This document shows positions 6,212 to 20,345 of a stretch of 20,345 nucleotides of DNA, in pieces. Source of the stretch: a virus. Under the pieces are notes generated by a model, which was not told where the DNA came from, made no database searches, and saw only the letters and a list, made by a program, of their open reading frames with translations. Both the position numbers and the translations under genes were made by a program. Within the stretch, counting starts at the first letter, position 1; every line of letters begins with the position of its first letter. The stretch covers positions 1-20,345 of the IMG/VR virus record IMGVR_UViG_3300031687_000132; one strand, 5' to 3'.

Positions 6212-6213
6212 AT

Positions 6214-6645: not shown

Positions 6646-6651
6646 TACTTA

Positions 6652-6660: not shown

Positions 6661-6690
6661 AAAAAACAAGCAATTTGTAAAATCAATAAG

Positions 6691-6726: not shown

Positions 6727-6747
6727 TTTAAAAGAATACATTGCTTT

Positions 6748-7290
6748 TTAAGCAGGTACTCCGGCAGGTGTTGGGTCAATTAAATCTGTTGAAGGCGTAA
6801 CTGCTGCCGCTAAGAAATAAGGCGCTCTTTCTTCCATTCCTTCGAACGTCAAAGTGAAACCTGTTAAATCTCCTGCAGCTGCTCCTGTCACTACTGTTCC
6901 CCCCGTTAATTCCATACCATTTTCAAGGCCCAAAAGGAAGTTGTTACCGTAGTAGTCCTCAACTACCGCATAAGGTCTAGATACTGCAAGTAATTGCAAT
7001 TCTGCTTGCGTTTTAGAGTCTAAGAAAGTTAATGTTAAATTTAATGTTTGGGTATAAAATGTCGTACCATTATCTCTACTAGAGGTAACAGTAGTTTCAA
7101 GACTAGAAGCCCCTTTAACATTATATTCAAACCAAACAGGTGCAGGTGAACCATTAACAATAGTTGCTAAATTGTCTGCGTCAAGTGTTATTGAGGCAAT
7201 TGTGCCATAATCCGCAAAATAAACGGTTTTAATACCTCCAAATCCACTTTTACAAGGAATTTTTCTACCGGTAGTTAATAAACAAGCCAT
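6748..7290 (-). CDS. Probable major tail (tube) protein
   Basis: A 180-residue, mostly beta protein beginning MACLLTTGRKIPCKSGFGGIK. It has a Cys pair (C3, C13), a GGIKTVYFADYG segment, then alternating hydrophobic/Thr strands (SLETTVTSSRDNGTTFYTQT, LTLTFLDSKTQAELQLL) and LTGFTLTFEGMEE near the end, with a Pro/Ala-rich tail. This pattern fits the small tail-tube proteins that Bacteroidetes phages carry beside their capsid gene, as I recall them. It follows the capsid gene after a terminator, has a very A-rich leader (about nine A, then TAAAAATT), and is followed by its own strong terminator, in keeping with a protein needed in many copies. A head decoration protein or minor capsid protein is the main alternative. 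Confidence 0.58.
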   Translation of the reverse strand: MACLLTTGRKIPCKSGFGGIKTVYFADYGTIASITLDADNLATIVNGSPAPVWFEYNVKGASSLETTVTSSRDNGTTFYTQTLNLTLTFLDSKTQAELQLLAVSRPYAVVEDYYGNNFLLGLENGMELTGGTVVTGAAAGDLTGFTLTFEGMEERAPYFLAAAVTPSTDLIDPTPAGVPA

Positions 7291-7315
7291 AATTTTTATT
7301 TTTTTTTAGTTAAAC

Positions 7316-7330
7316 TGTTGATTTTCAACA
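7316..7330 (-). promoter_or_regulatory. Small perfect hairpin in the leader of the tail-tube gene
   Basis: TGTTGA and TCAACA flank a 3-nt loop between the capsid terminator and the start at 7290. It could stabilise the 5' end of a read-through or processed message. There is no direct support for a function. Confidence 0.35.
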
Positions 7331-7343
7331 AGTTGTATTGAAT

Positions 7344-7376
7344 AAAAAAAGGGTAAGTAGACGAACCACCTACCCT
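7344..7376 (-). terminator. Rho-independent terminator after major capsid gene
   Basis: An 11-bp stem (AGGGTAGGTGG with the opposite arm, two G-U pairs) with a TTCGT loop is followed by seven T on the minus strand. It lies 20 nt after the capsid stop codon and is one of the best-formed terminators in the window. A weaker T run lies on the other side, so it may work both ways. Confidence 0.88.
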
Positions 7377-7396
7377 GTTTTTAATATTAATTAATT

Positions 7397-8374
7397 CTAA
7401 GTATAAGAAACAATATCAGAAGCGATTCCAAATTGAACTGCACTTGTAAACCTCATAACGATTCTCGCGTTATTTGATGCATCTAAATCGCTCATATCCA
7501 AGACCTTAACTTCTTGTGTCGAATTTAACAAACCTGTTCCGAAATATAAATTAGAACGTTGTGCTGCATACATTTTATCGTCAGATAATCCTTGACCAAC
7601 AAATATTTTTACACCATTTACAGTTAAAGAACCATTGTTCCACCATTGCGTACCCATATTAGAAACACCATTTGCTCCTAAACCATTTGCTGCAAATCCA
7701 CCTAACGCCTGAACGTATAATTTAGCTGCTTTGCTTCCGATGTAAATAAACAAATCTTCTTTACCATAAAGTTGTGCAGGAATTGCCGTTACAACGTCAG
7801 ATAATTTTTCAATAATATTTAAAGCCGTTAAAGCTACACCACCACCAATTGCCTGTGCTGCCGGAACATCTCCTGCTGCTACTGCCGTTGCGATTAATTT
7901 TTCAAAACCATCAAAAGAATTGTTTGTAGCTGCTGCTGTATCACCTTGCCAAATATTAAACTCAGTATTTTGTGCAACCTCTGATGCAACGTGTGCAATC
8001 ATAAAGTCAGAAAACTTAGGAGGTAAAGTTTGACCTAAACCGAAGCCCATTGATTGACTTTCCCAATCGTTCACGAAATCATATTTACATAATTGAAGGT
8101 TAACCATCAACTCTACCGGTTGAATTATTCTTTCAGTTAAAGTTACAGAACTGTTTGGTGAAAAGTCACAAGCCGCTGCTTGAACTAAAGCACCTGTAGC
8201 TAATTTCTTAATTACTTCTTTGAAAGCGATGTTTGCTTTTACAGTTAATCCTCCGTCATCAATAGTTGATGCAGATAATAAAGCCGCTGCAATATACTCA
8301 CCTGCAAATTCTCCTGCATAAGTTGTAGTAATATTTGTAGCTGTTGCTAATTTTACATTTTTTAAATTACTCAT
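7397..8374 (-). CDS. Major capsid protein
   Basis: A 325-residue protein rich in Ala, Gly, Asn and Thr with few charges, as expected for a shell protein. Visible landmarks are YAGEFAGEYIAAALLSAST (about residues 19-37), a TLTERIIQPVELMVNLQLCK segment (79-98), DWESQSMGFG and PPKFSDFMIAHVASEVAQNTE, and a C-terminal KVLDMSDLDASNNARIVMRF stretch. These match the capsid proteins I recall from marine and flavobacterial Bacteroidetes phages; the fold is presumably HK97-like. It follows the protease and scaffold-like genes (25-nt gap), has an A-rich leader, and is followed at once by a strong terminator, which would allow a separate abundant message. Confident by context and composition. Confidence 0.82.
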   Translation of the reverse strand: MSNLKNVKLATATNITTTYAGEFAGEYIAAALLSASTIDDGGLTVKANIAFKEVIKKLATGALVQAAACDFSPNSSVTLTERIIQPVELMVNLQLCKYDFVNDWESQSMGFGLGQTLPPKFSDFMIAHVASEVAQNTEFNIWQGDTAAATNNSFDGFEKLIATAVAAGDVPAAQAIGGGVALTALNIIEKLSDVVTAIPAQLYGKEDLFIYIGSKAAKLYVQALGGFAANGLGANGVSNMGTQWWNNGSLTVNGVKIFVGQGLSDDKMYAAQRSNLYFGTGLLNSTQEVKVLDMSDLDASNNARIVMRFTSAVQFGIASDIVSYT

Positions 8375-8399
8375 TTTTATTTTTATTTTACTGTTTATA

Positions 8400-9068
8400 T
8401 TATTTATTGGCTAATCTGTGTAATATTTTATCCATTGTAGTTGCACCCATTTTATTGTGTACAAATTCAACTTTTTTCTTTTGAACAGATTTAGATTCAG
8501 GGTTTGCTTTAATTGAAGAAACTGCAGGCTCTAAAACTTCAGAAAATTCTTCTTTTACGGTTCTAGACTTTAAAACGTTTACCTCTTCACCAACTTTAGG
8601 CTCTTCCGGCATTTCTTCCATTTTAGATTCTTTATCACCTTTTAAATCAGCAATTGCATCTTCAAGATTTTGGATCCTTTTTTCCATACCCTTCCAATCT
8701 GCAACATCTGCTTCTTCTTCCAATTCCTTTTCGTCTTCTTTCTTTTCGTCTTCCGGATGGTCCCCTTCGTAATTTTCTTTTTCTTCTAGGTCTTCGGTAA
8801 CTTCTTCACCCTCTTTAGGTGTAGCTTCGTCTGCAACGTCTCTAATGTCTGCAATAATACCTTCTTCAGAAACAACTAATAAACGGCCATCCTCAAGAAT
8901 ATATTCTCCCACAGGCATAGCAACTTGTTGATCATCGGTAACGATAAATAATTCGCTGTCCTTTTCAAAAGAATCTGCACTAACTATAGTACCATTTTCT
9001 AACTTCATTTCTTCAAGTTTAACCTGAATGTTTAGAAGTTCTTTAATTTGATTTAATTTACTTTTCAT
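8400..9068 (-). CDS. Capsid scaffold-like acidic protein
   Basis: I choose ATG at 9068 (222 aa, MKSKLNQIKELLNIQ) over an in-frame ATG at 9161, because the longer form would overlap a well-supported 53-aa gene and because the recurrent ACCGTTATA motif stands before 9068. An N-terminal helix is followed by a compact part (LENGTIVSADSF, PVGEYILEDGRLLVVSEEGII, about residues 21-74). Then comes a highly acidic Glu/Lys/Asp coiled region (about 80-170, including GMEKRIQNLEDAIADLKGDK) and a basic C-terminus (VQKKKVEFVHNKMG). An acidic coiled middle with a basic C-terminal end, placed between protease and capsid, is the usual build of a scaffolding protein. It probably shapes the procapsid and is then removed by the protease. 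No cleavage site is claimed. Confidence 0.7.
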   Translation of the reverse strand: MKSKLNQIKELLNIQVKLEEMKLENGTIVSADSFEKDSELFIVTDDQQVAMPVGEYILEDGRLLVVSEEGIIADIRDVADEATPKEGEEVTEDLEEKENYEGDHPEDEKKEDEKELEEEADVADWKGMEKRIQNLEDAIADLKGDKESKMEEMPEEPKVGEEVNVLKSRTVKEEFSEVLEPAVSSIKANPESKSVQKKKVEFVHNKMGATTMDKILHRLANK

Positions 9069-9077
9069 AATTATTAA

Positions 9078-9086
9078 TATAACGGT
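9078..9086 (-). promoter_or_regulatory. ACCGTTATA motif before scaffold start
   Basis: ACCGTTATA lies 9 nt upstream of the ATG at 9068, in the 40-nt gap after the 53-aa gene. It is the same 9-mer as at 6652-6660. It could be part of a late promoter or a translation-start element. It also supports the choice of 9068 as the start. Confidence 0.4.
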
Positions 9087-9108
9087 TTTTAATTTAGATT
9101 TTGTATTT

Positions 9109-9270
9109 TCAGTCTGTTCTAGATATAACTCCAATGCCTTGCGCTTGAATAGAGCCATCACAACATTTTCTAGAATAAGTGTTTGTGTCCCAACAAAGAC
9201 AGGCCCTGCCGCTATTAGTGGGTGATGTTCTACTTGGTATAAAACCCGGTTTTCTTTTTTCTTGACCCAT
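9109..9270 (-). CDS. Cys-rich 53-aa protein between protease and scaffold
   Basis: ATG at 9270 shares one base with the TAA of the protease gene (TAATG), and the frame runs 53 codons to TGA at 9109. The N-terminus is basic and Pro/Ser-rich. The core has C24, C26, C36 and C37 in a GRACLCWDTNTYSRKCCDGS segment followed by QAQGIG. The C-x-C and CC pairs could bind metal or form disulfides. I recall similar Cys-Cys-Asp-Gly-Ser small proteins in Bacteroidetes phages but no function. Its place in the head-maturation block and its coupling to the protease suggest a small virion or assembly factor. It is easily missed because an upstream extension of the scaffold frame covers part of it. Confidence 0.72.
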   Translation of the reverse strand: MGQEKRKPGFIPSRTSPTNSGRACLCWDTNTYSRKCCDGSIQAQGIGVISRTD

Positions 9271-9878
9271 TAATTTTTTTTATTTAAAATGTCTTTTATT
9301 TTGTCAATCATTAAATCTTCAGATAATTCTAGGTCCTCTTTTACTTTTGATTTCTGTTCCATTTTATCAATGAAATATCCTTCAATACTAAAAGCCTTTA
9401 CCTTACCCGTTTTCACATAATTATTCCAAACTTCCTCATTATTGACTTTAACGGCCCCCATCCAAGTACCTACAGGAACATCGATTCCGTAAACTCTAGA
9501 TTTGTCCATTTTTTCATCGGCCACCAACCAAGTTTCAACTAAAGTCAAACCTTGTAAATCTTTTTCTCCGTGTTCTATATTTGAATTTGATTGATTGCCA
9601 TTTTGCAAGTACATTTGTGAAGCCTTTGCAATAGTTTCTTTACTGAAAAAAATATAATATTCTTCTCCGTCCGGGCCATTTCTATAAATTGGTTTATTTG
9701 GGATTAATAATGCGCCCATTAATAACCTTTTTTCTTTATCAACTTCAGCAAGTTGTATAGATTCCTGCTTTTTTAAAGCAACAAAATTGGACTCAATGGC
9801 CGGATTTTCTACAATTGCTATACAGTCAATTCCTGCATCTTCATTTTCTTCGTCTAAAACTAATTCTATTATTTGCAT
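9270..9878 (-). CDS. Prohead serine protease, XkdF / S78-2-like
   Basis: A 202-residue protein that matches the XkdF-type capsid maturation protease pattern. It has an N-terminal CIAIVENPAIESNFVAL segment (about 19-35), LLMGALLIPNKPIYR (52-66), the candidate catalytic His at 103 (NIEHGE), LTLVETWLV (111-119), PVGTWMGAVKV (135-145) and the candidate nucleophile Ser164 in KAFSIEGYF. The last 30 residues are charged and helical and may be a linker. It would cleave the scaffold and possibly capsid N-termini during procapsid maturation. It lies upstream of the scaffold-like and capsid genes, its usual setting. The start at 9878 is preceded by the TACGTTATA motif. The third member of a catalytic set is not assigned. 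Confidence 0.8.
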   Translation of the reverse strand: MQIIELVLDEENEDAGIDCIAIVENPAIESNFVALKKQESIQLAEVDKEKRLLMGALLIPNKPIYRNGPDGEEYYIFFSKETIAKASQMYLQNGNQSNSNIEHGEKDLQGLTLVETWLVADEKMDKSRVYGIDVPVGTWMGAVKVNNEEVWNNYVKTGKVKAFSIEGYFIDKMEQKSKVKEDLELSEDLMIDKIKDILNKKN

Positions 9879-9883
9879 ATCAT

Positions 9884-9896
9884 TATAACGTATTTA
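9884..9896 (-). promoter_or_regulatory. TAAATACGTTATA motif before protease start
   Basis: This 13-mer is identical to the one at 17141-17153 and ends 5 nt before the ATG. It lies in the 37-nt gap after the tape measure gene. The TATAAT included here could serve as a -10-like element, but no -35/-33 partner was recognised. Confidence 0.42.
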
Positions 9897-9915
9897 AAAC
9901 TTATTTTTGTATTTG

Positions 9916-12066
9916 TTACCCAATTGTTGCTCCCTGTATAATGTTTCTTTCTAGACTTTGAGCCGTTGTAACGTCACCTGAAACAACAAAAGCCTGAACA
10001 GGTTGCTGTGCTTGGCCTCCTATTGCATCGGCCAATTGATTAGTATCACTTGCCCCCACCACATTAAAAGCAGGCGGTTGCGGAGGTACAGGTTCTGCTG
10101 TAGCCATCGCAGCACCGGCCCCCGGATTAGTAGCGTTTCCACCTCCTGAAGATGGGTTTGTTGCTAAAATACTTTTCACAGATTTAAAACCAATAGCGGC
10201 AGTTGTAGCTATATTTACCAACTTCATTGCAAAACCAAAAGGTGTTGCCGTTTTTGTAGCCAATTCGGCGGTTATACCCTGATAGGTATTTATTAATGCT
10301 GAAGCAGCCGCTGCTGCCTTACCTGCTTTTGAGTTTTCACCTAAAGCAGCCGCAATTCCACCTAGGGTTTTTTTAGCCATCTCTAATTTTGCATCATTAG
10401 CTGCATCTTCTGCATCTGCAATCTGATTAACATAATTGGTTTCAATCTGAAGCAGTTGTTTTTTGGACGCGCCTAGCCTTTTTGCCTTATCTAAAGCAGC
10501 CTGTTTTTCATCTTCTAAAGCAATTTCTTTTTCCTCTGTTTCTTTTTCTAAAAAAGCAGCGAGTTTTTCATCTTCAATTACTTTTGCCTCATCTTCAATT
10601 ACCTTTTTCTTTTCCTTAAAAGAGGCTTCAATATCTAAAAGCATTTGTTCTTTTAGTGTTTTGCTAACCCTTAGTTCTTCTAATTCCTTAATCCTGTCTT
10701 CTCTTTCTGCCTCAATATCAGCAAATTTATTTTCTTTGTCTTTTATTCTAAGACTATCTTTAAAATCTTGAATTGCTAACGCTTTCGCATCTGCCTCATC
10801 ATCTATTTGTTGTATTCTTGCAGCCTCTTCTTTTCTAACTGATACTAATTGACTAGAAAGCTGTTTAGCTTTTACAAGCCTTTGAGTCTCTAAGTTTATC
10901 AATTGCGCCTTTAATTCAAGTTCTGCTTTAATATCTTTTTTATCACTTAAACCTTGTTCGTTTAAATCTTGTTGTGTTTTAAGTTTTAATTTTGCAAGTT
11001 TTATTTGTTTTTCATTAATTTTATCTTCAACTTTTCCTGCTTCTTCTAAAAATTTAATTCTTTGTGCTGCAGAATAAATGTCTTTTTTTGCTGCCTTATC
11101 TAAAAGTGACTGCCTGTCTCTTTCTGCAATTGCTCTTTCTGTAATTAATTCATTTTCAATTTTATGGGCCTTTTTTTTGTCTGCTGCAATCATTAGCGCA
11201 ACCTTGGCTTCCTTTGTAAGTTCTGTTACTAATTTTTTTGTTCCTTCAACCATTGCCTCTACGATCATTACCGCAGGATTCAAAGCCCTGTTTAATTGTA
11301 AAACACCTTTTGAAGCATCATTTAAGGCCCCTGTAAGATTACCTTTAAATAATTTTGATATTGCAGAACCCATAAAGCCTAAACCTTCAACGGCCTGTTC
11401 TACCTTATCCATTACAAATTCCTTTATACTTTTACCAAAACCTTTTAAAGTTTCAATAGGCTCCGTAAATAAGCTAATTAAACCACTTCCTAAAGCAGCT
11501 AACCTATCTTTAAAAACAGAAACAACCGCCCCAACAACTTCCATAACTGCGGCCCACTTTTTTTGGCCCTCTTCTGAACTTGTAAAAGCAGCGTATAAAG
11601 CCCCCATAACAACAACTAAAGCACCTAGGCCGGTAGAAATTATTGCAAGTTTCATTGTCTTAAAACCTTTGGTTGCATTTTTCAACCCCTTTACCATTCC
11701 GCTAAATCCTGAAATTAGACCCCCGGTTTGAGCATCTAATTTTCCAACAACTCCTGAATAATCTACACTAGCTTTTTTAGCATTTACTAAATCTCTTGTA
11801 GCCTTTTTTTGTGAAGCAGAAAGTAATTTAGCACCTTTTTTTTCTAGTGTTATTTTTTGCTTTAATTGCTTAATATAATCTTTAGTATCTTTAATACGGT
11901 TTAATTGTTTAGGACCTAATTTTGATAAAGCCCTTTCCGCATCCAATAATTTCCCTTCCATTATCAGCAATTCATCATTTTGTTCTTCTACAGCCTTTGT
12001 AAGTTTGTCAACATTTTTGACTGCATCCGCCGTGGAAACTTTTACCGTGTAATCTTTTTCTACCAT
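9916..12066 (-). CDS. Tail tape measure protein
   Basis: A 716-residue, highly helical protein with the composition of a tape measure: Lys, Ala, Glu and Leu rich, long heptad-like stretches (about residues 15-100 and 290-560, e.g. LEKETEEKEIALEDEKQAAL), and a hydrophobic segment at about 139-161 (LAIISTGLGALVVVMGALYAAF), as tape measures often have for passage through the host envelope. The C-terminus turns Gly/Pro/Gln/Thr-rich. It sets tail length and holds the tail tip complex. At roughly 0.15 nm per residue this predicts a tail near 105 nm (inference). No lytic transglycosylase or peptidase domain is seen. The start overlaps the stop of a 45-aa gene by 7 nt, indicating coupling. Confidence 0.88.
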   Translation of the reverse strand: MVEKDYTVKVSTADAVKNVDKLTKAVEEQNDELLIMEGKLLDAERALSKLGPKQLNRIKDTKDYIKQLKQKITLEKKGAKLLSASQKKATRDLVNAKKASVDYSGVVGKLDAQTGGLISGFSGMVKGLKNATKGFKTMKLAIISTGLGALVVVMGALYAAFTSSEEGQKKWAAVMEVVGAVVSVFKDRLAALGSGLISLFTEPIETLKGFGKSIKEFVMDKVEQAVEGLGFMGSAISKLFKGNLTGALNDASKGVLQLNRALNPAVMIVEAMVEGTKKLVTELTKEAKVALMIAADKKKAHKIENELITERAIAERDRQSLLDKAAKKDIYSAAQRIKFLEEAGKVEDKINEKQIKLAKLKLKTQQDLNEQGLSDKKDIKAELELKAQLINLETQRLVKAKQLSSQLVSVRKEEAARIQQIDDEADAKALAIQDFKDSLRIKDKENKFADIEAEREDRIKELEELRVSKTLKEQMLLDIEASFKEKKKVIEDEAKVIEDEKLAAFLEKETEEKEIALEDEKQAALDKAKRLGASKKQLLQIETNYVNQIADAEDAANDAKLEMAKKTLGGIAAALGENSKAGKAAAAASALINTYQGITAELATKTATPFGFAMKLVNIATTAAIGFKSVKSILATNPSSGGGNATNPGAGAAMATAEPVPPQPPAFNVVGASDTNQLADAIGGQAQQPVQAFVVSGDVTTAQSLERNIIQGATIG

Positions 12067-12197
12067 TTGATATTGTTTTTAATCTTTTTAAAAGCGTCTT
12101 TTACATTTGTTGGTAATCCGTATTTTCCCTGAGCAATTTTAATATTCTCAGTCTCTCCGTTTGCAATCTTTAGTAAATCTAATATATTTTTTATCAT
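12060..12197 (-). CDS. 45-aa protein overlapping tail and tape measure genes
   Basis: ATG at 12197 overlaps the TGA of the 716-aa tail gene (ATGA, 4 nt). The frame reads 45 codons to a TAG inside the first codons of the tape measure gene (7-nt overlap). The product begins MIKNILDLLKIANGETENIK and ends KDAFKKIKNNIKW: basic, probably two amphipathic helices, no Cys, no membrane segment. Overlap at both ends is strong evidence that it is translated, and it places the product in tail assembly. It could be a small chaperone or a tape-measure partner. No family is recognised. Confidence 0.68.
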   Translation of the reverse strand: MIKNILDLLKIANGETENIKIAQGKYGLPTNVKDAFKKIKNNIKW

Positions 12198-14344
12198 ACC
12201 TTGTTTAATAATTCCATATCACTTTTTCCACTTTGTAGATTTGTAGTGATTGAGTTAATAATATATTTTTGTGAGTTTATTTCAAAAGTATCATTTAGTT
12301 TAAAATCAAATAATATTCTTAACGGTAAATATGATGTTACCTTGGTTATTCTCCTGCTAGAGTTAAAAACATCTATAATATATGGAGAATGATAGGCTGA
12401 AAATAAAGTGTCGCTAAACTCATTTGTTCTAGTGTATTCGTTTATTTCATTATTGAAATTTATGTTTTCTCTGCCCTGATATTGCGCACTTATATATATA
12501 CTATTTGATGGTATCGTATATCCTAATACCTGAGTAACAGTAGTTGCACTTGTAACCAATGAAATTGGAGTCATTCCTCCGATTCTATATATAGCGTAAA
12601 AAATTAAAGGTTTCCCTATGTATGGTTGTTGATTTTCATTTACAGAATAACCCCATTGAATTGTTGTGTCAACGCTACCTGTGACGTTAATTAACCTTTC
12701 GTATTTAAAATGCTCAAATGGTACTAAAACTTTATAAATCTCGGTAGAAGCATTATAATTCACACCCCCTGTTTGACCTTGTGGGTCACCTGAATAACTT
12801 AACGCTCCCCAATTGCTACCTGCTAATTGATTATGTTGTTTAGCTAAAATACTACCTGTACCCTCATATCCATAAACAATTTCATTGTAAGGTAAAGCTA
12901 CGTTTACTTTGTTTTTATTAGTATCAATAAATGAAGAAATATTATAATTTATCGGTGCATCATTTCCGCTAATATCTGAATCTGTATAATACGATAAATT
13001 CCCTGCTGCTCCATAGACAGAAGAACTATCTGCCTCTAAAGGTCTCACTACTATTGTCCCTATTTCATCTACATAAGCCACTAAATTAAACATTTTAAAC
13101 AGCCCTGTAAGAAATGACATTATAGTAACATCAGGTATTTGTTCTTTTACTAAAAAATCAAAATCGTTTGTAATCTGAAAAGAAGTTGTAGTTACTGTAT
13201 CTGTGTAAAAACTTGCGCTACCACCTTGAACAAAATAATAAACCCCGTCAAACTCCCATTCCACATTTGTGAAAGAAATAGATGCCGCTGCTGTAACAAA
13301 AATATTAAAAACTCCGTTTCCTACTAAAGCAAATTGATTTGTAAAAGTTTGGTTTCCTGAAGCACTTGTTGATTGCCAATACGGGCTTCCGTTTAAAGTT
13401 ACATTTACTACATAAGCTGTACTACTTGTAGTTGTAAAACTTAGGCTATTAGTTATAACTCTATTAGGATAGGTTAACATATCAGCAGGAGTAATAATAT
13501 TAGCGCCCGTTGATATTAAATGAGCATTCGCCGGAGAAGGTGTTGCAAAAGCAACTTGACTTGTAATAGACGCCACCTGTTGCGCAGGTTGTACTGCTCC
13601 ACTTTTACGATGTAACCACATATATAAGTTGTAAAAACTAGGATTTGATACATTGAAAAAATCTCTTGAAAAAACTATGTTAGTCGAGTAACCCTCTGCA
13701 ATGTTATACTTTGCCTCAATCTCTAAGATTAATTCATACAATCTAATAGCAAATTTTAATTGGTCCCATTTAAGCCCCTTAACCACTCCATTACTAAAAC
13801 TAACATTATTAGTTCCTGCTACGTCTTCACCTGAATTATAATAAATTCCATCCGTATGAGTAATTAATGGCGCTATGATCTTACTGTCACCAACCTCACC
13901 CATATATGATTTTATGTTTGCAGATGTATAAGGTATGCTATAATCTGAACTTGAAAAAAATAAAGAACCTAATTTATCTTCGCCTAAAATATCAGGTAAT
14001 TCTACCGTATTACCAAAGAAAGTAATATTATAAGTATGAGCAACATTGTTTTTTAATTCAACGCCTTCGAGTTTTATTCTACCTGTTTTATATGGAATTG
14101 TATTTAATTCTATTCTACCATCTTTTTTAATTCTCGCATCAAACCCCCCTACAATATCAAAATTATAATAGTGTTTAAAAATCTTATTATTTACCTTACT
14201 TGCAGGCAGCGAAAATGTTTTTGTAAACGATGTAAAAATCTTAGAAACATCTTTGACATTTTGAATTGTTTCTGTTAACGAAACGCTTTCATCTTTGAAT
14301 AAATCCAACCTTTGCCCCTCAATATACAATTGTAATTTTTGCAT
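12194..14344 (-). CDS. Large tail/baseplate-type virion protein
   Basis: A 716-residue, mostly beta protein beginning MQKLQLYIEGQRLDLFKDES. The first ~130 residues hold a dense set of features I remember from flavobacterial phage proteins of this type: SLTETIQNVKDVSKIFTSFT, FSLPASKVNNKIFKHYYNFD, GGFDARIKKDGRIELN, then an ITFFGNTVELPDILGEDKL segment. The middle (about 250-380) is Ser/Thr/Ala-rich and looks like inserted beta-sandwich material. Later a VKEQIPDVTIMSFLTGLFKMFNLVAYVDE stretch resembles hub-type regions, and the C-terminus (NDTFEINSQKYIINSITTNLQSG) is again beta. Being next to the tape measure suggests distal tail or hub function. The exact role (Dit, hub or receptor contact) is not decided by sequence. 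Confidence 0.65.
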   Translation of the reverse strand: MQKLQLYIEGQRLDLFKDESVSLTETIQNVKDVSKIFTSFTKTFSLPASKVNNKIFKHYYNFDIVGGFDARIKKDGRIELNTIPYKTGRIKLEGVELKNNVAHTYNITFFGNTVELPDILGEDKLGSLFFSSSDYSIPYTSANIKSYMGEVGDSKIIAPLITHTDGIYYNSGEDVAGTNNVSFSNGVVKGLKWDQLKFAIRLYELILEIEAKYNIAEGYSTNIVFSRDFFNVSNPSFYNLYMWLHRKSGAVQPAQQVASITSQVAFATPSPANAHLISTGANIITPADMLTYPNRVITNSLSFTTTSSTAYVVNVTLNGSPYWQSTSASGNQTFTNQFALVGNGVFNIFVTAAASISFTNVEWEFDGVYYFVQGGSASFYTDTVTTTSFQITNDFDFLVKEQIPDVTIMSFLTGLFKMFNLVAYVDEIGTIVVRPLEADSSSVYGAAGNLSYYTDSDISGNDAPINYNISSFIDTNKNKVNVALPYNEIVYGYEGTGSILAKQHNQLAGSNWGALSYSGDPQGQTGGVNYNASTEIYKVLVPFEHFKYERLINVTGSVDTTIQWGYSVNENQQPYIGKPLIFYAIYRIGGMTPISLVTSATTVTQVLGYTIPSNSIYISAQYQGRENINFNNEINEYTRTNEFSDTLFSAYHSPYIIDVFNSSRRITKVTSYLPLRILFDFKLNDTFEINSQKYIINSITTNLQSGKSDMELLNKV

Positions 14345-14345
14345 C

Positions 14346-14374
14346 TATGTTATTTCTATGTTATCGTATGTTAT
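14346..14374 (-). repeat. Three short direct repeats ATAACATA at a gene junction
   Basis: ATAACATA occurs three times on the minus strand (14367-14374, 14357-14364, 14346-14353), spaced 10 and 11 nt, across the stop of the 337-aa gene and the last bases before the next ATG. The first copy is coding (NNIR), so chance is possible; the helical-turn spacing is notable. Confidence 0.5.
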
Positions 14375-15374
14375 TTATGTAATCAAACGCATCTTCAAAT
14401 TCAATTGTGTAATTTATTAACTTGTCATTTATAGATTTTTTTAATTCTATATTTGAAGACTTAACACGTACAGGTATTACAATTTCTGATGCAGGATTTC
14501 TCTTATTGTAAACTACCATCCAAACGTACTCACTTAAAAGTAACTGTTCAAAATATTCAACCGCACCTTCAGGATAATAACCTGAATTTAAAGTATAAGA
14601 TTTTTTAGCCTGTGTATTAAAGGTTTTTACAGGTGCATCATTTACTATGTAATATGGGTCAGGGTCATCAAAACGAATTGTGTTTGATTGATACGTTTCG
14701 TTTTTTCTGCTAAGTTTTTGAACTTCTTTTAAAGAAAACCAAAGGTCTTGCGCTACACCGTATTTATTAATAAAATTTATCTTTCTTCCGTTTCCGTATT
14801 TACTGCAATTTATGCGAGTTATTTTTAAATCTTCACTAATAGCAGAACCTGCCGAAATACTTGTCGATGCTGAAGTGTAAGCATAAGAAGAACTAACACC
14901 TCCACCATTCATTCCTGAAATAAAACCACCCTCGCCAATAGGTACAAATATTTCAAAATCTCTAACGAAATAAGATTCTGATTTTATTGGTGCAATTAAC
15001 CAAGTACCTAGAAAAGTATTTACAGGGTTTACAGGATTAGCACCGTCAATATAAAGGCCATAAGCTTCCCACCCAACATCTGTAAAAACAGTAGGGCTGC
15101 CGACTACACTACCCTCTCCATTTAAACCTGTATAAGCAGTCAGGGTTGTAGTAATATTTATTTTTTGGGGAAAGTTATTAGAACTATAACTTATTGTCAA
15201 GTAATCCCTGCACAATTCAGCTATTTCAAACACACCATTTAAAACCGTTGCTCTATTTTTATTTACCGTGTACCTTAGAGTTCCATCAATTGTTAAAGTT
15301 AATTGTATTGAATTAGCAGATGCCGATGTAGACTTGGTTTTATACTGTGGACTTCTTAATGCTATATTTGCCAT
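14361..15374 (-). CDS. Virion protein, probably distal tail
   Basis: A 337-residue beta-rich protein beginning MANIALRSPQYKT. Landmarks are LTLTIDGTLRYTVNK (about 26-40), a GVFEIAELCRDYLTI segment (47-61), a Ser/Gly/Ala-rich linker (about 160-180), NFINKYGVAQDLWFSLKE (about 204-221) and a C-terminal IELKKSINDKLINYTIEFEDAFDYINNIR. Proteins with the FINKYG...LWF pattern are, as I recall, common in Bacteroidetes phage structural modules without a solved role. It stands between the tail-completion-like gene (3-nt gap) and the large tail protein (16-nt gap), so it probably acts in the same complex as the latter, for example as a distal tail or baseplate component. Confidence 0.6.
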   Translation of the reverse strand: MANIALRSPQYKTKSTSASANSIQLTLTIDGTLRYTVNKNRATVLNGVFEIAELCRDYLTISYSSNNFPQKINITTTLTAYTGLNGEGSVVGSPTVFTDVGWEAYGLYIDGANPVNPVNTFLGTWLIAPIKSESYFVRDFEIFVPIGEGGFISGMNGGGVSSSYAYTSASTSISAGSAISEDLKITRINCSKYGNGRKINFINKYGVAQDLWFSLKEVQKLSRKNETYQSNTIRFDDPDPYYIVNDAPVKTFNTQAKKSYTLNSGYYPEGAVEYFEQLLLSEYVWMVVYNKRNPASEIVIPVRVKSSNIELKKSINDKLINYTIEFEDAFDYINNIR

Positions 15375-15377
15375 TGT

Positions 15378-15920
15378 TTATTTTTTTGTTCCTAATATTA
15401 TTGCGTCTTCTACGTCTAAGAAAAAACCCTCTACCATTTCTTTTGGTAAATCTTCTAAAAGTTGATCAAAAGGTTTAGTGAAAAAATGGTTTGCTTCAAT
15501 ACCTTTATTGTAAATGCTCCTAGCAATTAACCACGACATTGTTTCGTAAGACATAAATCGACCCAACTCTGTACGCCATTGAAATTTCTTTTTATTAAGC
15601 CATTCGGTAACTCCTTTTTTCAACCCACCTTTTGGACCTGTTCCACTTCCATAACGAAAATCAGAAAGTGCTGAAGCCGGATAAGTCGAAGTTTTTCCTT
15701 GAACTCCTTTGTCTACAAATTTACCGTAAGGCTCCATTAAAAAGTCAATTAAAAAAAAATCTTTTTCAGTTTGTACATTATAGGTCATTGTATTATACAA
15801 ATCACCCCCTGCTTTGTTCTGTCCGTACTTGTTTACGTCACTTTTAAGGTTGTTCTTAGCCTCTTGTACCACATTGCTAGCAAAAGTGCTTAAAACAGCT
15901 TCTAATCTCTTCGTGTTCAT
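15378..15920 (-). CDS. HK97 gp10-like tail completion / head-tail joining protein
   Basis: This 180-residue protein has the hallmarks of the HK97-gp10-type family: an N-terminal helix (about 5-28), a GGDLYNTMTYNV segment (39-50), then YGKFVDKGVQGK (65-76), the typical 'Y..F...G' region, followed by a Lys-rich stretch and a helical C-terminus (LLEDLPKEMVEGFFLDVEDAI). Such proteins complete the neck or the tail end that meets the head. It lies 1 nt after the tail-terminator-like gene and before the large tail genes, a normal position for neck and tail completion genes. The family call is moderately strong. Confidence 0.7.
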   Translation of the reverse strand: MNTKRLEAVLSTFASNVVQEAKNNLKSDVNKYGQNKAGGDLYNTMTYNVQTEKDFFLIDFLMEPYGKFVDKGVQGKTSTYPASALSDFRYGSGTGPKGGLKKGVTEWLNKKKFQWRTELGRFMSYETMSWLIARSIYNKGIEANHFFTKPFDQLLEDLPKEMVEGFFLDVEDAIILGTKK

Positions 15921-15921
15921 T

Positions 15922-16401
15922 TTAGCAAATTAAAATATCGTTATAAACTAAAACATCTAAAGTGCAGGTCCATCCGGCAAGTTGATTTTCAAAACGATCA
16001 AAAAACGGAACCATTGATGAAGTACCTTCAACCTGAAACATATCTGTGTACAAATCGCCTAATCTTAATCTTTGGGTTAATTTATTTAATACTGATAATT
16101 GAGTATTTAAAACGTCCTGCAGATTATTATTTCCTACAAATTTGTCTATTGTTTCTGTCTTTGAATAATTTACAAGGTCGCAAGCTAAAATACTTATACT
16201 AAATCGAAGGACCTGCCTGTCATCAACTACGTTATTTACAATAATATGTCCCAATGGAAAAATATCCTGTTTGTTTAAATTTACGTCAGTTATGTCTCCG
16301 GTGGTGACTGTGTTAATATTTATATCTTCTAATAACGCATTTTTTATTTCCTGCGTTAATTTATAATATCCCCGGATTCCGATATTTGCTTCTATACTCA
16401 T
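15922..16401 (-). CDS. Tail-terminator-like virion protein
   Basis: This 159-residue protein begins MSIEANIGIRGYYKLTQEIK. It has GDITDVNLNKQDIFPLGHIIVNN (about 35-57), an alternating hydrophobic strand with ISILACDLVNYS (69-80), DVLNTQLSVLNKLTQRLRLGDLY (95-117), and a C-terminal PFFDRFENQLAGWTCTLDVLVYND. Alpha/beta proteins of this size with a '..NQLAGW...D' ending next to gp10-like genes usually close the tail tube (tail terminator). ATG at 16401 directly follows the TAA of the frameshift frame, so its translation is probably linked to the chaperone message. The role is inferred from position and pattern. Confidence 0.58.
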   Translation of the reverse strand: MSIEANIGIRGYYKLTQEIKNALLEDININTVTTGDITDVNLNKQDIFPLGHIIVNNVVDDRQVLRFSISILACDLVNYSKTETIDKFVGNNNLQDVLNTQLSVLNKLTQRLRLGDLYTDMFQVEGTSSMVPFFDRFENQLAGWTCTLDVLVYNDILIC

Positions 16402-17135
16402 TTAGTTAAACTTTTTTTTCATTTGTTTGTTTTCAATCTCTGCCTTTTCTTTTTTGAAAGTAAGCATCTGCAAGCATTCGTGTATCCCTAATTTAGTGAC
16501 AAATTCAAATCTTGTAATAAGGCCGTCAGCGAGACTGTAAACTGATTGATACCACCCCCATTTTCCTGAGAATTGAGATATTTCGTCAAGGCTTCCGTTT
16601 CCTCCACCTCCAAAGAGTTCATCATAACTTGCGATAATTCCATCCCTAAATTCCACAAAAAAAAAACTGAAGATAAAACCGCATCCATTGGCATATCTAA
16701 AATATCTGCTTCGTTTCCTACTTCGTATTCTGATATACTATATTTTTCTTTCAACGTTGAAACTACCGGTCTATATAAAACATTCATTGCTCGCTCAATA
16801 TTAGGCCAATCACCGATATTATTATCTAAATCTATATATTCCCCTAGACTCATATTATCTAGCCCTGTATGGAAGCCGTAATCGGTCCCGTTTAATTCAA
16901 ATCTAGTAACTAAAGCAGGTTTTTGTTCAAATAGTTTTGAAATCATTTCTACAATTTCATCTACAGCATTGACTTCTAATTTCATTACCTCTGCTAATTT
17001 AAGAGAACAAAAAATCTCGACCATTTTAGCATTCATAAAGTTATCGCTCTTAACGTCTTCAGAAATTTTAAGAAAGTGTTTATACTGTCTTAAAGTAATC
17101 TCGCTTAGTGATGTTGGAATTTTTACCTTTATCAT
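16402..17135 (-). CDS. Tail assembly chaperone, -1 frameshift product (GT-type)
   Basis: A -1 slip at the T tract (16659-16665) would join residues 1-159 of the upstream chaperone frame to a second open frame ending at 16402, giving about 244 residues. The new C-terminal part contains a Gly-rich linker (FGGGGNGSLDE), then FSGKWGWYQSVYSLADG, FEFVTKLGIHECLQMLTFKKEK and a basic end. KWGW...HECL is the sort of conserved signature expected of a real domain, and the frame has no start of its own except GTG. The geometry is canonical: 0-frame codons TTT TTT preceded by T, then TTG. As in lambda G/GT, the short form would coat the tape measure and the long form would recruit tube protein. No clear downstream pseudoknot was found. 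Confidence 0.75.
16488..17135 (-). CDS. Tail assembly chaperone, 0-frame product (G-type)
   Basis: A 215-residue, mostly helical acidic protein beginning MIKVKIPTSLSEITLRQYKHFLK. It has a TDYGFHTGLDNMSLGEYIDLD segment (about 84-104), then ALNVLYRP-like NVLYRPVV (118-125), the VFFLWNLG stretch at 157-164 where the slip site lies, and a Ser/Asn-rich C-terminus. It is the first gene after the cassette terminator and opens the tail module. The 0-frame continues 56 codons past the slip site, overlapping the -1 frame by about 170 nt; both frames look coding. It presumably binds the tape measure during tail assembly. The start at 17135 is preceded by the ACGTTATA motif. Confidence 0.75.
   Translation of the reverse strand: MIKVKIPTSLSEITLRQYKHFLKISEDVKSDNFMNAKMVEIFCSLKLAEVMKLEVNAVDEIVEMISKLFEQKPALVTRFELNGTDYGFHTGLDNMSLGEYIDLDNNIGDWPNIERAMNVLYRPVVSTLKEKYSISEYEVGNEADILDMPMDAVLSSVFFLWNLGMELSQVMMNSLEVEETEALTKYLNSQENGGGINQFTVSLTALLQDLNLSLN
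16659..16665 (-). promoter_or_regulatory. Slippery heptamer T TTT TTT for -1 frameshift
   Basis: The minus strand reads G, ten T, G (16667-16656). In the 0 frame this is GTT TTT TTT TTG, giving the canonical T_TTT_TTT heptamer. A slip back by one base continues as TTT GTG GAA TTT AGG, which is open for 84 further codons. The ten-T tract could also allow polymerase slippage. Confidence 0.75.
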
Positions 17136-17140
17136 AATAA

Positions 17141-17153
17141 TATAACGTATTTA
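17141..17153 (-). promoter_or_regulatory. TAAATACGTTATA motif before tail chaperone start
   Basis: The 13-mer ends 5 nt before the ATG at 17135 and begins 29 nt after a strong terminator, so a promoter for the tail module is expected hereabouts. It is identical to the motif before the protease gene (9884-9896). No matching TTTG / TAnnTTTG pair was seen. Confidence 0.42.
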
Positions 17154-17181
17154 ATTTTGTTTTTTATAAAAGTAAAGGTAC

Positions 17182-17212
17182 AAAAAAAAGGAAGGCCATT
17201 TCTGACCCTCCT
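17182..17212 (-). terminator. Strong terminator closing the small-gene cassette
   Basis: Ten base pairs (AGGAGGGTCA with TGGCCTTCCT, two G-U pairs) are capped by a GAAA tetraloop and followed by seven to eight T on the minus strand. It lies 27 nt after the 41-aa zinc-finger-like gene and separates the cassette from the tail genes. There is no T run on the other side, so it works in one direction. Confidence 0.92.
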
Positions 17213-17239
17213 GTATAAGTAAGTAACCCAATTTTATAC

Positions 17240-17365
17240 CTACCTATTATCTTCTCTAAAACAATCGGCTGAACAAAAATCTTTATCGTCCTCAATTGCT
17301 TTTCCACACATTCCGCATTCGTTTTCTTTTTCGTCTACCGGATTTAAATCGTCATACCATTCCAT
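17240..17365 (-). CDS. 41-aa acidic zinc-finger-like protein
   Basis: ATG at 17365 to TAG at 17240. The acidic N-terminus (MEWYDDLNPVDEKENE) is followed by C17-x2-C20-G-K-A-I...F-C31-x3-C35. The CGMCGKAI...FCSADC spacing is that of a small treble-clef zinc finger. Such mini-proteins can bind DNA, RNA or protein, and the acidity argues for a protein or host-factor partner. The leader on the minus strand (AAAATATAAAAATATG) is the same 16-mer that precedes the 30-aa membrane ORF starting at 20056. It is the last gene before the cassette terminator. Metal binding is inferred from Cys spacing only. Confidence 0.72.
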   Translation of the reverse strand: MEWYDDLNPVDEKENECGMCGKAIEDDKDFCSADCFREDNR

Positions 17366-17394
17366 ATTTTTATATTTTAAGTTAAAAGTTTATA

Positions 17395-17703
17395 TTATAC
17401 CATTTCCATTTTCCCGTTCTTACTTCTAGTTTTCATATAGGTGCATCCGGCGTGCGACATTCCAATGTTTAAAATGTCAAATTCATCTAAATCTTTTTCA
17501 GCCATTAAATCTAAGTTTGCATAACCTGAATAATACTTCATATCGTCATCGTCATAAAGTTCAAAAAAATCCGTTAAGCCTAAACCTTTAACTTTTTTTA
17601 TATCTTCTTCAGTTGCCCTGTACCCATCTAAATGATCGCTCGTTATACTAATAATATATTCTGAATTTACTTTGAAAAGTTTTACCGCTGTCTTGGTTCT
17701 CAT
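17395..17703 (-). CDS. Acidic 102-aa protein of unknown function
   Basis: The product begins MRTKTAVKLFKVNSEYIISI and is clearly acidic, with EDIKKVKGLGLTDFFELYDDDDMKYYSGY in the middle and a DLMAEKDLDEFDIL helix, ending in a basic KTRSKNGKMEMV tail. No motif or family is recognised, and there is no signal peptide or membrane segment. It is preceded by its own promoter-like element overlapping a palindrome shared with the gene at 18324, and by the AAAACAGA-N4-ATG leader. Together with its neighbours this suggests an accessory (moron) gene rather than a virion part. Confidence 0.68.
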   Translation of the reverse strand: MRTKTAVKLFKVNSEYIISITSDHLDGYRATEEDIKKVKGLGLTDFFELYDDDDMKYYSGYANLDLMAEKDLDEFDILNIGMSHAGCTYMKTRSKNGKMEMV

Positions 17704-17707
17704 TTTG

Positions 17708-17715
17708 TCTGTTTT
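17708..17715 (-). promoter_or_regulatory. AAAACAGA leader element, 4 nt before ATG
   Basis: AAAACAGA lies exactly 4 nt before the ATG at 17703. The same 8-mer is at the same distance before two other cassette genes (18176-18183, 18329-18336) and was not seen before other genes of the window. It may be a translation-start element. Confidence 0.5.
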
Positions 17716-17742
17716 TAAGTGATAGCTTATTTGCTAACAATT

Positions 17743-17774
17743 TCAATATAGTGAAAATAAACGTTATAAACAAA
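17743..17774 (-). promoter_or_regulatory. Promoter-like element for the 102-aa gene
   Basis: TTTG (17774-17771), a 20-nt spacer and TATATTGA (17750-17743) approximate the Bacteroidota consensus TTTG / TAnnTTTG, with two mismatches in the -7 box. The -33 box lies inside a 24-bp palindrome, in the same arrangement as the better promoter at 18347-18378. The implied start is about 30 nt before the ATG. Confidence 0.5.
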
Positions 17775-17786
17775 TTATTTGATAAC
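17763..17786. repeat. 24-bp palindromic operator-like repeat, copy 2
   Basis: GTTAT-N14-ATAAC, identical to copy 1 (18367-18390) at 20 of 24 positions; a further 7 bases on its promoter-distal side also match. It covers the -33 box of the adjacent promoter, so a bound repressor or activator could control the gene at 17703. Confidence 0.65.
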
Positions 17787-17793
17787 TATTTTT

Positions 17794-17913
17794 TATTTAT
17801 TTACCTTCGTTAAGATTACGTGAGTAATATGTACCCTTATAAAAAGTGATGCAGCCATACCTTAAACCTGCGACAGTATTATCAGTCAGCTACACCTACT
17901 TAAATTAATTTTA
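17794..17913. other. Intergenic stretch, less AT-rich, no supported gene
   Basis: Between the 85-aa gene and the second operator lie about 120 nt, of which roughly 17815-17897 is visibly richer in G+C than the flanks. It holds a small perfect inverted repeat (ATTAC-GTGA-GTAAT, 17815-17828) and only a 21-codon minus-strand ORF from an ATG near 17856, which has no supporting feature. No good terminator was found for the upstream gene. It could hold a leader or small RNA. Confidence 0.4.
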
Positions 17914-18171
17914 TTAGTTTTCCTCCGGTCTTAAATATTCATCCATTAAATCCAATGCAAATTCATCCATTAAAGTTTCTTCATTATTGGTTAAAGGCCT
18001 GCAGGAAATAGTTGTAATAAATAAAGAATCTTCTCGACATTCAGAAATACCACAAATTTTTGCTTCAATCTCGTAAATGTTTAAATAGCCATTTTTTAAA
18101 TGGGTCAATTTATAAGTTAAATAAATCCCGTTTTCTTTTAGTAATTCTACTGTTGTTTTTTCGTTACTCAT
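17914..18171 (-). CDS. Acidic 85-aa protein of unknown function
   Basis: MSNEKTTVELLKENGIYLTY opens a probable beta-strand-rich N-terminal half (YKLTHLKNGYLNIYEIEAKI). Three Cys follow (C40, C45, C57) with SLFITTIS, and an acidic helical C-terminus ends it (LMDEFALDLMDEYLRPEEN). No family is recognised. It follows the 45-aa Cys-rich gene by 15 nt and carries the AAAACAGA-N4-ATG leader, so it is probably co-transcribed from the promoter at 18347-18378. Small size, acidity and unrelatedness to virion proteins point to an accessory role, for example binding a host factor; this is inference. Confidence 0.66.
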   Translation of the reverse strand: MSNEKTTVELLKENGIYLTYKLTHLKNGYLNIYEIEAKICGISECREDSLFITTISCRPLTNNEETLMDEFALDLMDEYLRPEEN

Positions 18172-18175
18172 AATG

Positions 18176-18183
18176 TCTGTTTT
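18176..18183 (-). promoter_or_regulatory. AAAACAGA leader element, 4 nt before ATG
   Basis: AAAACAGA lies exactly 4 nt before the ATG at 18171, in the 15-nt gap after the upstream gene, and so is inside the transcript. This location favours a translational over a promoter role for the shared motif. Confidence 0.5.
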
Positions 18184-18186
18184 TAT

Positions 18187-18324
18187 TTATTTTATTTCCG
18201 GTAGCCCGAAAGAATTAATTTCTATTTTTAGGTCCAAAGGTATTCCGCAATCTTCGCCTTCGCAGCAAAAATTATCTTCGTGGTTTTCCCATTCGCATAC
18301 CTCGCATTTAATTGTATTTTTCAT
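18187..18324 (-). CDS. Cys-rich acidic 45-aa protein
   Basis: ATG at 18324 to TAA at 18187. The product begins MKNTIKCEVCEWENHEDNFC and has C7-x2-C10, H15, then C20, C21 and C26 (CCEGEDC), followed by a short hydrophobic/acidic tail. The CxxC...CC...C spacing suggests a compact zinc-binding knuckle. It has about 11 acidic residues against 4 Lys. This is the first gene after the large terminase and stands behind the best Bacteroidota-type promoter of the window, with a leader of only about 16 nt that contains AAAACAGA. No family is recognised; metal binding is inferred. Confidence 0.66.
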   Translation of the reverse strand: MKNTIKCEVCEWENHEDNFCCEGEDCGIPLDLKIEINSFGLPEIK

Positions 18325-18328
18325 TTGA

Positions 18329-18336
18329 TCTGTTTT
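18329..18336 (-). promoter_or_regulatory. AAAACAGA leader element, 4 nt before ATG
   Basis: Same 8-mer at the same 4-nt distance from the ATG (18324) as in the two other cassette genes. With the predicted transcription start near 18340 it would be near the 5' end of the message. Confidence 0.5.
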
Positions 18337-18346
18337 ATGTTCTTCA

Positions 18347-18378
18347 CAAATGTAATGCTTTTATTAGTTATACACAAA
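18347..18378 (-). promoter_or_regulatory. Bacteroidota-type promoter for the small-gene cassette
   Basis: TTTG (18378-18375), a 20-nt spacer and TACATTTG (18354-18347) match the Bacteroidota primary sigma consensus (-33 TTTG, -7 TAnnTTTG) at every defined position. The -33 box is inside a 24-bp palindrome. It lies just after the large terminase stop and drives the 45-aa and 85-aa genes. Recognition by the host sigma factor suggests expression independent of the late programme. Confidence 0.72.
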
Positions 18379-18390
18379 TATATTGATAAC
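18367..18390. repeat. 24-bp palindromic operator-like repeat, copy 1
   Basis: GTTAT-N14-ATAAC with the -33 box inside. Copy 2 at 17763-17786 has 20 of 24 identical bases; 7 more bases (18391-18397) match and run into the stop codon of the large terminase gene. Likely a binding site for a dimeric regulator that is not encoded in this window. Confidence 0.65.
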
Positions 18391-18395
18391 TATTT

Positions 18396-19559
18396 TTAAT
18401 GTAATGCGTATTTTCCAAAGTTTGGCTTGCTTAAAATAGAATATGCAGCATAACGACAGGGATCGATTATATGATTGTTTTTGTCTTCCGGAATATTTAG
18501 AAGCATTCCGCTTTTATCTTCTTTCCATTTGTAATTTCTAAATTCCATAATTGCATTTGTAGAATCTTTTAATACGTGTAATTTATATCTTTTCAATAAA
18601 TCAATTCCTGCATTAATACTATCTTTTCCTTTTGTGCTTGGGAAAATATTAAAACCCATTCTGCGAAGTTCTGCAATTAAACGAGGTTCTGCGGAATCTG
18701 CATAAATTGGATTTGATTCTAGTTTTTCATTTCTTAAAAATGATGCAATATCATTGGTAGTCATTTGCGTTCTGTAAAGGTGTTCTTTTACATACATATT
18801 ATTGCCCCAAATATAAATTGAAACGAGTGAAGTCGGATCATTAGAGTACCCAAAATCCATTCCATAAGAAAGTAAATAAGCCTCATCCGGAATAACATTT
18901 ACTTCTACATATTGAAAAATTGTGCTTCTACTTGCTGATCTCTCACCTAAACCATAAATTTGCCAATACTGCTCATCTGTATCTTTTAAGAGTTCAATCT
19001 CTTTTATTATAGATTCTTCTATAAATGGATTGTCTAGGTAAGTAGTTTTAAAAAAGTCACAGTCATCTCTAGTGATTAATTTATCATAAATCCAATGAAA
19101 CTCATCTGATGGATTAAAGTCTAATATTATCCGGTCCTGAGTTCTGAATAATAATTGTTGCATATCTTCATAATACAATTCATTACCTTCATTAACAAAC
19201 AGTAAATCCCTTTTCCGGCCCCTAATTTTCTGCGGTTGATCCAAAGATATAAATTCAACTAAATTGCCAAATAAGCTATATTCTGAATTTGATTTATTAT
19301 GCGCTATTTCTGAGTAACAATTATACTCTTGAAGTATTGTTATAAAATCCCTCATTACTGTAGCACGTAAACTAGGAAAAGATTTTCTACAAATTGTTAC
19401 TACTTTATTTTTATTTAAAGAACAGTATTTAAAAATTATCCACAATAAAATATTGTAGGTTTTTCCGGACCTTGTTCCGCCCTGCTCAACAACAATTTTT
19501 GCTGAAGAATTATCTAAATGTTTGAAAACCTTATTGGTTTGAATCTTCGGTCTTATCAA
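18396..19559 (-). CDS. terL: Terminase large subunit
   Basis: A 387-residue packaging motor of the PBSX/terminase_3 type. The ATPase domain shows Walker A GGTRSGKT (27-34), a KIRGRKRDLLFVNE stretch with the Walker B and catalytic Glu (119-124), and a coupling-type LDFNP motif (146-150). The nuclease domain shows the three acidic positions expected of an RNase H fold: D235 in YGMDFGYSNDPTS, D288 in IYADSAEP and D366 in HIIDPCRYA. It powers DNA translocation into the procapsid through the portal and cuts the concatemer. The start overlaps the small terminase gene by 29 nt, and MIRPKIQTNKVFKHL is a normal N-terminus for the family. The length is slightly short but complete. The stop abuts the palindromic operator of the next unit. 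Confidence 0.96.
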   Translation of the reverse strand: MIRPKIQTNKVFKHLDNSSAKIVVEQGGTRSGKTYNILLWIIFKYCSLNKNKVVTICRKSFPSLRATVMRDFITILQEYNCYSEIAHNKSNSEYSLFGNLVEFISLDQPQKIRGRKRDLLFVNEGNELYYEDMQQLLFRTQDRIILDFNPSDEFHWIYDKLITRDDCDFFKTTYLDNPFIEESIIKEIELLKDTDEQYWQIYGLGERSASRSTIFQYVEVNVIPDEAYLLSYGMDFGYSNDPTSLVSIYIWGNNMYVKEHLYRTQMTTNDIASFLRNEKLESNPIYADSAEPRLIAELRRMGFNIFPSTKGKDSINAGIDLLKRYKLHVLKDSTNAIMEFRNYKWKEDKSGMLLNIPEDKNNHIIDPCRYAAYSILSKPNFGKYALH

Positions 19560-20060: not shown

Positions 20061-20345
20061 TTATATTTTTAAAATCTGTCCGCATTTATCGCAGGTTTCT
20101 TTATTTTCTTCAACTTCTTTTATTTTTTCTTCTTCTAGATCACCTTCAAATGGAAATCCCTGAAGGCCCCAATCTTCCAAATCTTTACGATCCCAATCAT
20201 TTGCTAATACGTCCCAATCCCACTCACCGAAGTGTTCATTGTCTTTTATAACAAATTCCTTGATTTGAGCATCATTTAAGCCAACAGCAGACAAAACCGG
20301 TATGGTTTTATATCCTAATTCCACAACGGCCTTAAACCTCATATT
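20061..20345 (-). CDS. ParB-like nuclease-domain protein, C-terminal part
   Basis: The frame is open to the window edge (codon AAT before the Met at 20342), so this is the 94-residue C-terminal part of a longer gene. It shows MRFKAVVELGYKTIPVLSAVGL then AQIKEFVIKDNEHFGEWDWDVLAN, the end of a ParB/Srx-type N-terminal domain as found in phage and plasmid proteins that regulate or modify DNA, often fused to an adenine methylase. Here no methylase follows: the protein ends after an acidic linker with TCDKCGQILKI, half of a zinc ribbon. It lies directly before the terminase genes, a common place for such proteins in phages. The role (packaging-site marking, DNA binding or regulation) is inferred. 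Confidence 0.75.
   Translation of the reverse strand, partial: NMRFKAVVELGYKTIPVLSAVGLNDAQIKEFVIKDNEHFGEWDWDVLANDWDRKDLEDWGLQGFPFEGDLEEEKIKEVEENKETCDKCGQILKI

Follow-up and report, generated by a model that had tools for sequence, protein, structure and literature searches.

The window analysed here, a stretch of 20,345 bases from a virus record whose relatives are viral contigs, carries four small genes on its minus strand, namely g45 (45 aa; 18187-18324), g85 (85 aa; 17914-18171), g102 (102 aa; 17395-17703) and g41 (41 aa; 17240-17365). As an earlier note on this DNA had described, all four products are acidic (pI 4.05-4.93) and two are rich in Cys (five residues in g45 and four in g41). 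The gene for the terminase large subunit (TerL; 18396..19559; Pfam Terminase_3, 1.7e-23) forms the upstream flank, and a tail-assembly-chaperone-like block (16402..17135), comprised of g215 (16488-17135) and an overlapping 84-aa ORF in the -1 frame (16402-16656), forms the downstream flank; all of these are likewise on the minus strand. The two chaperone-like frames are joined at an invariant T10 run (16657-16666), an arrangement that is kept in 57 of the 58 sequences checked; the one exception was the copy from the window itself, which was read in reverse orientation. Judging from this arrangement, the pair has the layout of the G/GT kind of tail-assembly chaperone and would be expressed by programmed frameshifting or transcriptional slippage; thus, the cassette does lie between terminase and tail genes. 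Compared with the nearest distinct relatives, g45 shows three synonymous and no non-synonymous changes, g41 three and one, g85 11 and five (dN/dS 0.09), and g102 14.5 and 8.5-9.5 (dN/dS 0.11-0.22). With dN/dS values of 0-0.12, and up to 0.22 in one comparison of g102, the four cassette ORFs are real genes under purifying selection.

The phage belongs to a group of uncultured marine flavophages that are abundant and mostly without cultured members. No DNA similarity to the window was found among isolated phages, and its cultured relatives are the Nonlabens phages P12024S/L (29% in the tail-chaperone gene) and Flavobacterium phages (36% in TerL). The contig G001 (30,856 b; contig of L002) is identical or nearly identical to the window (~100% or near) wherever genes were compared, and it spans the genome almost completely; since the end of the window maps back onto the start of G001, the genome is about 30.7 kb in length and either circular or circularly permuted. 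Nearly all predicted genes, including every gene with a recognised family, are read in one direction, and the phage encodes an Erf/Rad52-type annealing protein. The order of the structural genes is unusual, in that the tail genes and the tape measure precede the head protease, the major capsid protein and the portal (window 4043-16401, minus strand). Upstream of terS, a ParB-like gene (20061-20342, minus strand; 149 aa in G001) is cut by the end of the window; in many relatives this gene matches only over its first 60-80 residues and terS follows 1-3 kb further on, so the ParB-terS junction may vary too.

A TTTG element followed by TAnnTTTG is the promoter form of Bacteroidota. Two copies of a predicted promoter of this type, conserved in relatives, are present in the cassette, which bears out the proposal that the block has promoter elements of its own. 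Their general form is AAGTTATTAAATnnTTTGTTTATAA, then TAnnTTTG 19-20 nt on. Promoter 1 (18347..18396, minus strand) comprises the upstream element AAAATAGTTATCAATATA, a -33 TTTG (18378-18375), a 20-nt spacer and the -7 box TACATTTG (18354-18347), and promoter 2 (17743..17792, minus strand) comprises AAAATAGTTATCAAATAA, a -33 TTTG (17774-17771), a 20-nt spacer and TATATTGA (17750-17743); a 37-nt direct repeat in the window proved to be this promoter. Promoter mapping in Flavobacterium psychrophilum gave TAnnTTTG as the -7 box of the primary sigma factor (sigma-A) and TAnnTTGY as that of a second promoter class (PMC9723704); the -7 box of the cassette promoter agrees with the sigma-A form. A generic sigma-70 scan gave no excess of promoters (32 found against 30.6 expected from shuffles), because Bacteroidota promoters differ. 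When 62 distinct candidate sites from the intervals were aligned on TTTG, they had in common AAAAAGTTATTAAATnn-TTTG-TTTATAA, with TAnnTTTG or TATATTG[CA] 19-20 nt after the TTTG and an ATG typically 50-70 nt past the -7 box. The operators postulated in the earlier note hold up in so far as a GTTAT-N14-ATAAC dyad is perfect in both promoter copies of the window; in many relatives, however, the dyad is broken (ATAAG), and the part that is conserved is promoter sequence.

A weight matrix built from 46 of these promoter sites gave three matches in the 30.9 kb of G001, whereas shuffled sequence had none even when the threshold was lowered; two of the three lie in the cassette and the third before a second cluster of small genes. 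Among the 62 long intervals of relatives, 48 have a matrix match at most 110 nt from the terL stop, and those without one usually show, by eye, a weaker and divergent variant. The number of copies per locus ranges from one to four (four in L034 and L047). A search for the exact core pattern gave 56 stretches of viral contigs; those of known context almost always had it either downstream of terL or ahead of the second small-gene cluster. Among about 85,000 genomes of bacteria and archaea there was a single occurrence, with unrelated surroundings. One specific promoter is shared by unrelated small genes. A search of the literature found no match for such a promoter motif among Bacteroides phages, nor for hypervariable early loci. 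The second cluster (G001 8417-9490; L107) is headed by the cassette promoter and lies upstream of a 5'-3' exonuclease gene; its promoter is followed by small genes of 105, 60, 59 and 49 aa, the exonuclease gene and a DnaA-C-like gene. The genes of this cluster are similar to those in the cassettes of relatives and, like them, seem to be variable, and the KYKQNL...GYWSxTTQKHINY family, among others, is present at both promoter-marked loci.

An intrinsic terminator (17181..17212, minus strand), consisting of a 10-bp stem (17212-17189), a GAAA tetraloop and T8 (z -3.2), stands 3' of g41 and before the tail operon. The terminator recognised in the earlier note is well founded: the hairpin, with an invariant A[GAAA]T loop, recurs in 56 of the 62 long intervals of relatives, and its stem covaries (209 of 210 cells paired, against at most 158 in column shuffles). 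The loop remains constant while the stem changes freely, which is an unusual degree of loop conservation for an intrinsic terminator. Directly past the terminator lies a conserved tail-operon leader (17136..17180, minus strand) of the form TATAAAAAAC..TTAAATACGTTATAT..TATG, also given as TATAAAAAAC..TTTAAATACGTTATAT..TATG, and a copy of it precedes the head-protease gene (window about 9879-9915, minus strand). The leader motif TTTAAATACGTTATATnnnTATG, which is probably a late promoter or a translation-start element, was also observed at 14705 and 21962 in G001; other genomes of the group have it ahead of an additional gene as well. The leader shared by the tail and head genes is unlike the cassette promoter, and the late genes therefore carry a different signal. 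The conservation of these signals supports a separate control of the cassette, which would be set apart from the late genes.

Intervals anchored on TerL and g215 were complete in 68 contigs, and all 68 contain small genes. The length of the interval ranges from 178 to 2,401 bp. Measured alongside the backbone it is 176-2,399 bp (sd 437), compared with sd values of 1 nt for TerS-TerL, 22 for g215-g159, 4 for g159-g180 and 67 for g180-g337 in the backbone. The 261 small ORFs in these intervals fall into 67 clusters, of which 34 are singletons. The g41 cluster has 50 members, including the window's own, whereas g102, g85 and g45 each occur in few relatives; g45 is present only in close relatives, and g102 is confined to the terL-g215 locus wherever its context is known. 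The comparison of related phages that the earlier note had called for thus reveals a varying accessory content between terL and the tail chaperone, and the four genes do not recur together at the same place in all relatives. Replacement is evident even between close contigs. A single 41-aa gene is all that sets apart L091 and L092 (terL 99.7% identical in nucleotides); between L034 and L047 (99.3%), two genes are swapped for two others; L005 and L029, with identical terL, differ by a 71-aa gene and have diverged sequence beyond it; and L004, compared with L002 (93.9%), carries additional genes at two places, one following promoter 1 and the other preceding promoter 2. Six contigs (L021-L026) carry a single 50-aa gene and lack the promoter. 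In P12024S, gp38, the homologue of g215, starts at the terL stop, and the site is therefore empty. The block had been proposed to be an insertion; this is right in the sense that terL and the chaperone gene, otherwise neighbours, may or may not have genes between them (empty in P12024S, filled elsewhere), but not in the sense of a one-off event, because the site is hypervariable and is filled in every measured contig of the group.

Alternatively, the cassette might encode small late accessories of packaging or tail morphogenesis that happen to vary, with g41 as an assembly factor. The site between terL and the tail chaperone, and the place of g41, which in most relatives ends the cassette next to the tail operon, would agree with this explanation. 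We consider it improbable, however, because the cassette's own promoter and terminator are conserved across relatives, the tail-operon leader is different and is common to the head operon, gene turnover is extreme beside constant virion genes, and P12024S does without the interval.

It is also tempting to speculate about how the genes are exchanged. Homology breakpoints fall in promoter or leader sequence in 18 of 86 cases, against 6.8 expected (~2.6x); as the pairs compared lack independence and gene borders account for the majority of breaks, this evidence for recombination at the promoters is suggestive only. The promoter may serve as an exchange handle, such that modules of a promoter and one or more small genes are gained, lost and moved between the two loci by annealing, in the manner of an integron without an integrase. 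The Erf/Rad52-type protein would anneal the promoter repeats, and the fixed Zn-finger gene and the terminator would close the array. We regard this model as rather doubtful at present.

The statement that the products match no family is nearly right, the exception being g41, which belongs to phrog_34476 (5.7e-9). None of the four proteins had a significant match in NCBIfam or PADLOC, and in the family collections searched none matched a family of known function or a known anti-defence or takeover protein. Protein searches of 50,697 phage records gave no match for g85 or g102, and matches for g41 only in the Polaribacter phages P12002L/S (45%). The Cys pattern of g45, CxxC...CC...C, suggests a possible Zn-ribbon, and no family match was found for this protein. 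The product of g102 contains an invariant LTxFFELYDDD..KYYSG.AN.DLM, and its structure model is unusable (pLDDT 46). For g85, which has no known family, a usable and moderately confident model (pLDDT 79.7) predicts a four-stranded sheet with a helix; Foldseek searches with this model against BFVD and PDB found no match with E <= 0.001. Lipid-binding, BamC and AMPK folds were considered for g85 and set aside, because the VIA-align Z values, at most 5.8 and with folds that are unrelated to one another, indicate only a common arrangement. When 39 cargo clusters were scanned against Pfam, the only matches were to DUF7258, DUF3310, ParB_N and, weakly, DUF4142, and the DUF3310 and ParB-like families are of phage housekeeping types. 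A scan of the window against Rfam found nothing. The acidity of the products had been taken to hint at DNA mimics, and this argument was abandoned: 18 of 65 cargo clusters have a pI below 5, compared with 12 of 32 larger phage proteins, so the cargo is no more acidic than the rest and DNA mimicry is without support.

The near-constant last gene, g41, encodes a treble-clef-like Zn-finger protein. It shares sequence features and the Cys pattern CxxC...CSxxC with the phrog_34476 and DUF2116-like treble-clef proteins, with a DUF2116 score (1.1e-4) that is below the curated cut-off, and each of 49 distinct relatives retains all four Cys. A match to the YacG gyrase inhibitor (NCBIfam NF002362; E 0.013) is sub-threshold, at 15.2 bits against a curated cut-off of 79, and serves as no more than a lead. 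Binding to nucleic acid or protein is common among Zn fingers of this kind. The g41 protein might regulate the locus, much as anti-CRISPR-associated repressors do, or activate the late promoter that follows, and the remaining genes would then be the cargo; the near constancy of g41 among changing genes, its invariant Cys and the dyad in the promoter copies of the window phage would all be in keeping with such a role. On the other hand, g41 has no helix-turn-helix and only 41 residues, the dyad varies among relatives that keep g41, and the weak similarity to YacG would point elsewhere. A regulatory role for g41 therefore seems unlikely, without being far-fetched.

Taken together, the cassette is probably an independently transcribed, hypervariable accessory locus at a fixed site between terL and the chaperone genes, most likely expressed early or midway in infection and with host-directed products. 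The locus would form its own transcription unit, in which one to four phage-specific, Bacteroidota-type promoters precede changeable small genes, the near-constant 41-aa Zn-finger gene closes the array, and the terminator separates it from the late tail operon. Transcription would be carried out by the host RNA polymerase, early or midway in infection and apart from the late message; such timing is the most likely because of the form of the promoter and because the same promoter starts a second small-gene cluster that leads into DNA-metabolism genes. Small genes that are replaced quickly at one fixed position, each of them under purifying selection, are what host-directed accessory genes usually look like, and the products would most likely act on the host, in takeover, counter-defence or exclusion. 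The architecture, the conserved signals, the turnover of genes and the purifying selection are thus observed directly, while the timing of expression and the host-directed role are inferred from them. Several points count against this reading: g41, being nearly constant, is unlike exchangeable cargo, some relatives have only the weaker, divergent promoter variant, no cassette protein resembled a known anti-defence or takeover protein in the collections searched, and a few cargo families are of housekeeping types.

The earlier note had likened the block to a moron locus, and the layout does fit, since the locus has both its own promoter and its own terminator. A classical moron, carried by a temperate phage and expressed in lysogens from its prophage, would likewise be such a unit inside the late region; however, neither an integrase nor a repressor could be recognised in G001, the near-complete relative of 30.9 kb, which makes expression in lysogens unlikely, and bacterial genomes and the prophages within them are virtually devoid of the exact promoter core. 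We consider this version very improbable. The accessory locus favoured here may nevertheless work like a moron, or like an early anti-host locus with a role in counter-defence or takeover. Similarly to phage morons and lambdoid accessory genes, it is an independent transcription unit amid late genes that is present or absent among relatives; it differs from them in showing no signs of lysogeny, in having several genes and promoters, and in occupying a site that is always filled within the group. Highly variable genes at a fixed position, flanked by conserved phage genes, are also found in the accessory regions of coliphages that were screened for counter-defence (PMC12373910) and in the hotspots of P2/P4 (PMC9122126); by contrast, the genes of the present cassette are very small, and a repeated phage-specific promoter stands at its head.

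The closest precedent comes from archaeal viruses, SIRV2 and its relatives, in which a single conserved promoter served to discover anti-defence genes (PMC11065993). There, as here, many small, unrelated and rapidly replaced genes with dissimilar proteins follow one conserved strong promoter. The cassette differs in that it belongs to a bacterial tailed phage and has a Bacteroidota promoter, sits at a single site flanked by terL and the tail genes rather than at the genome termini, and, in the window, has no helix-turn-helix Aca-like gene. The promoter, the fixed flanks, the fixed last gene and the terminator together provide a sequence handle for dozens of small gene families in marine flavophages. 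To our knowledge, few counter-defence or takeover genes have been described for Bacteroidota, and if the cassette genes are of this kind, the locus would be a ready library of them for these bacteria. In these phages, the junction of terL and the tail genes is a hotspot of gene turnover that is kept apart from the late genes in its sequence signals.
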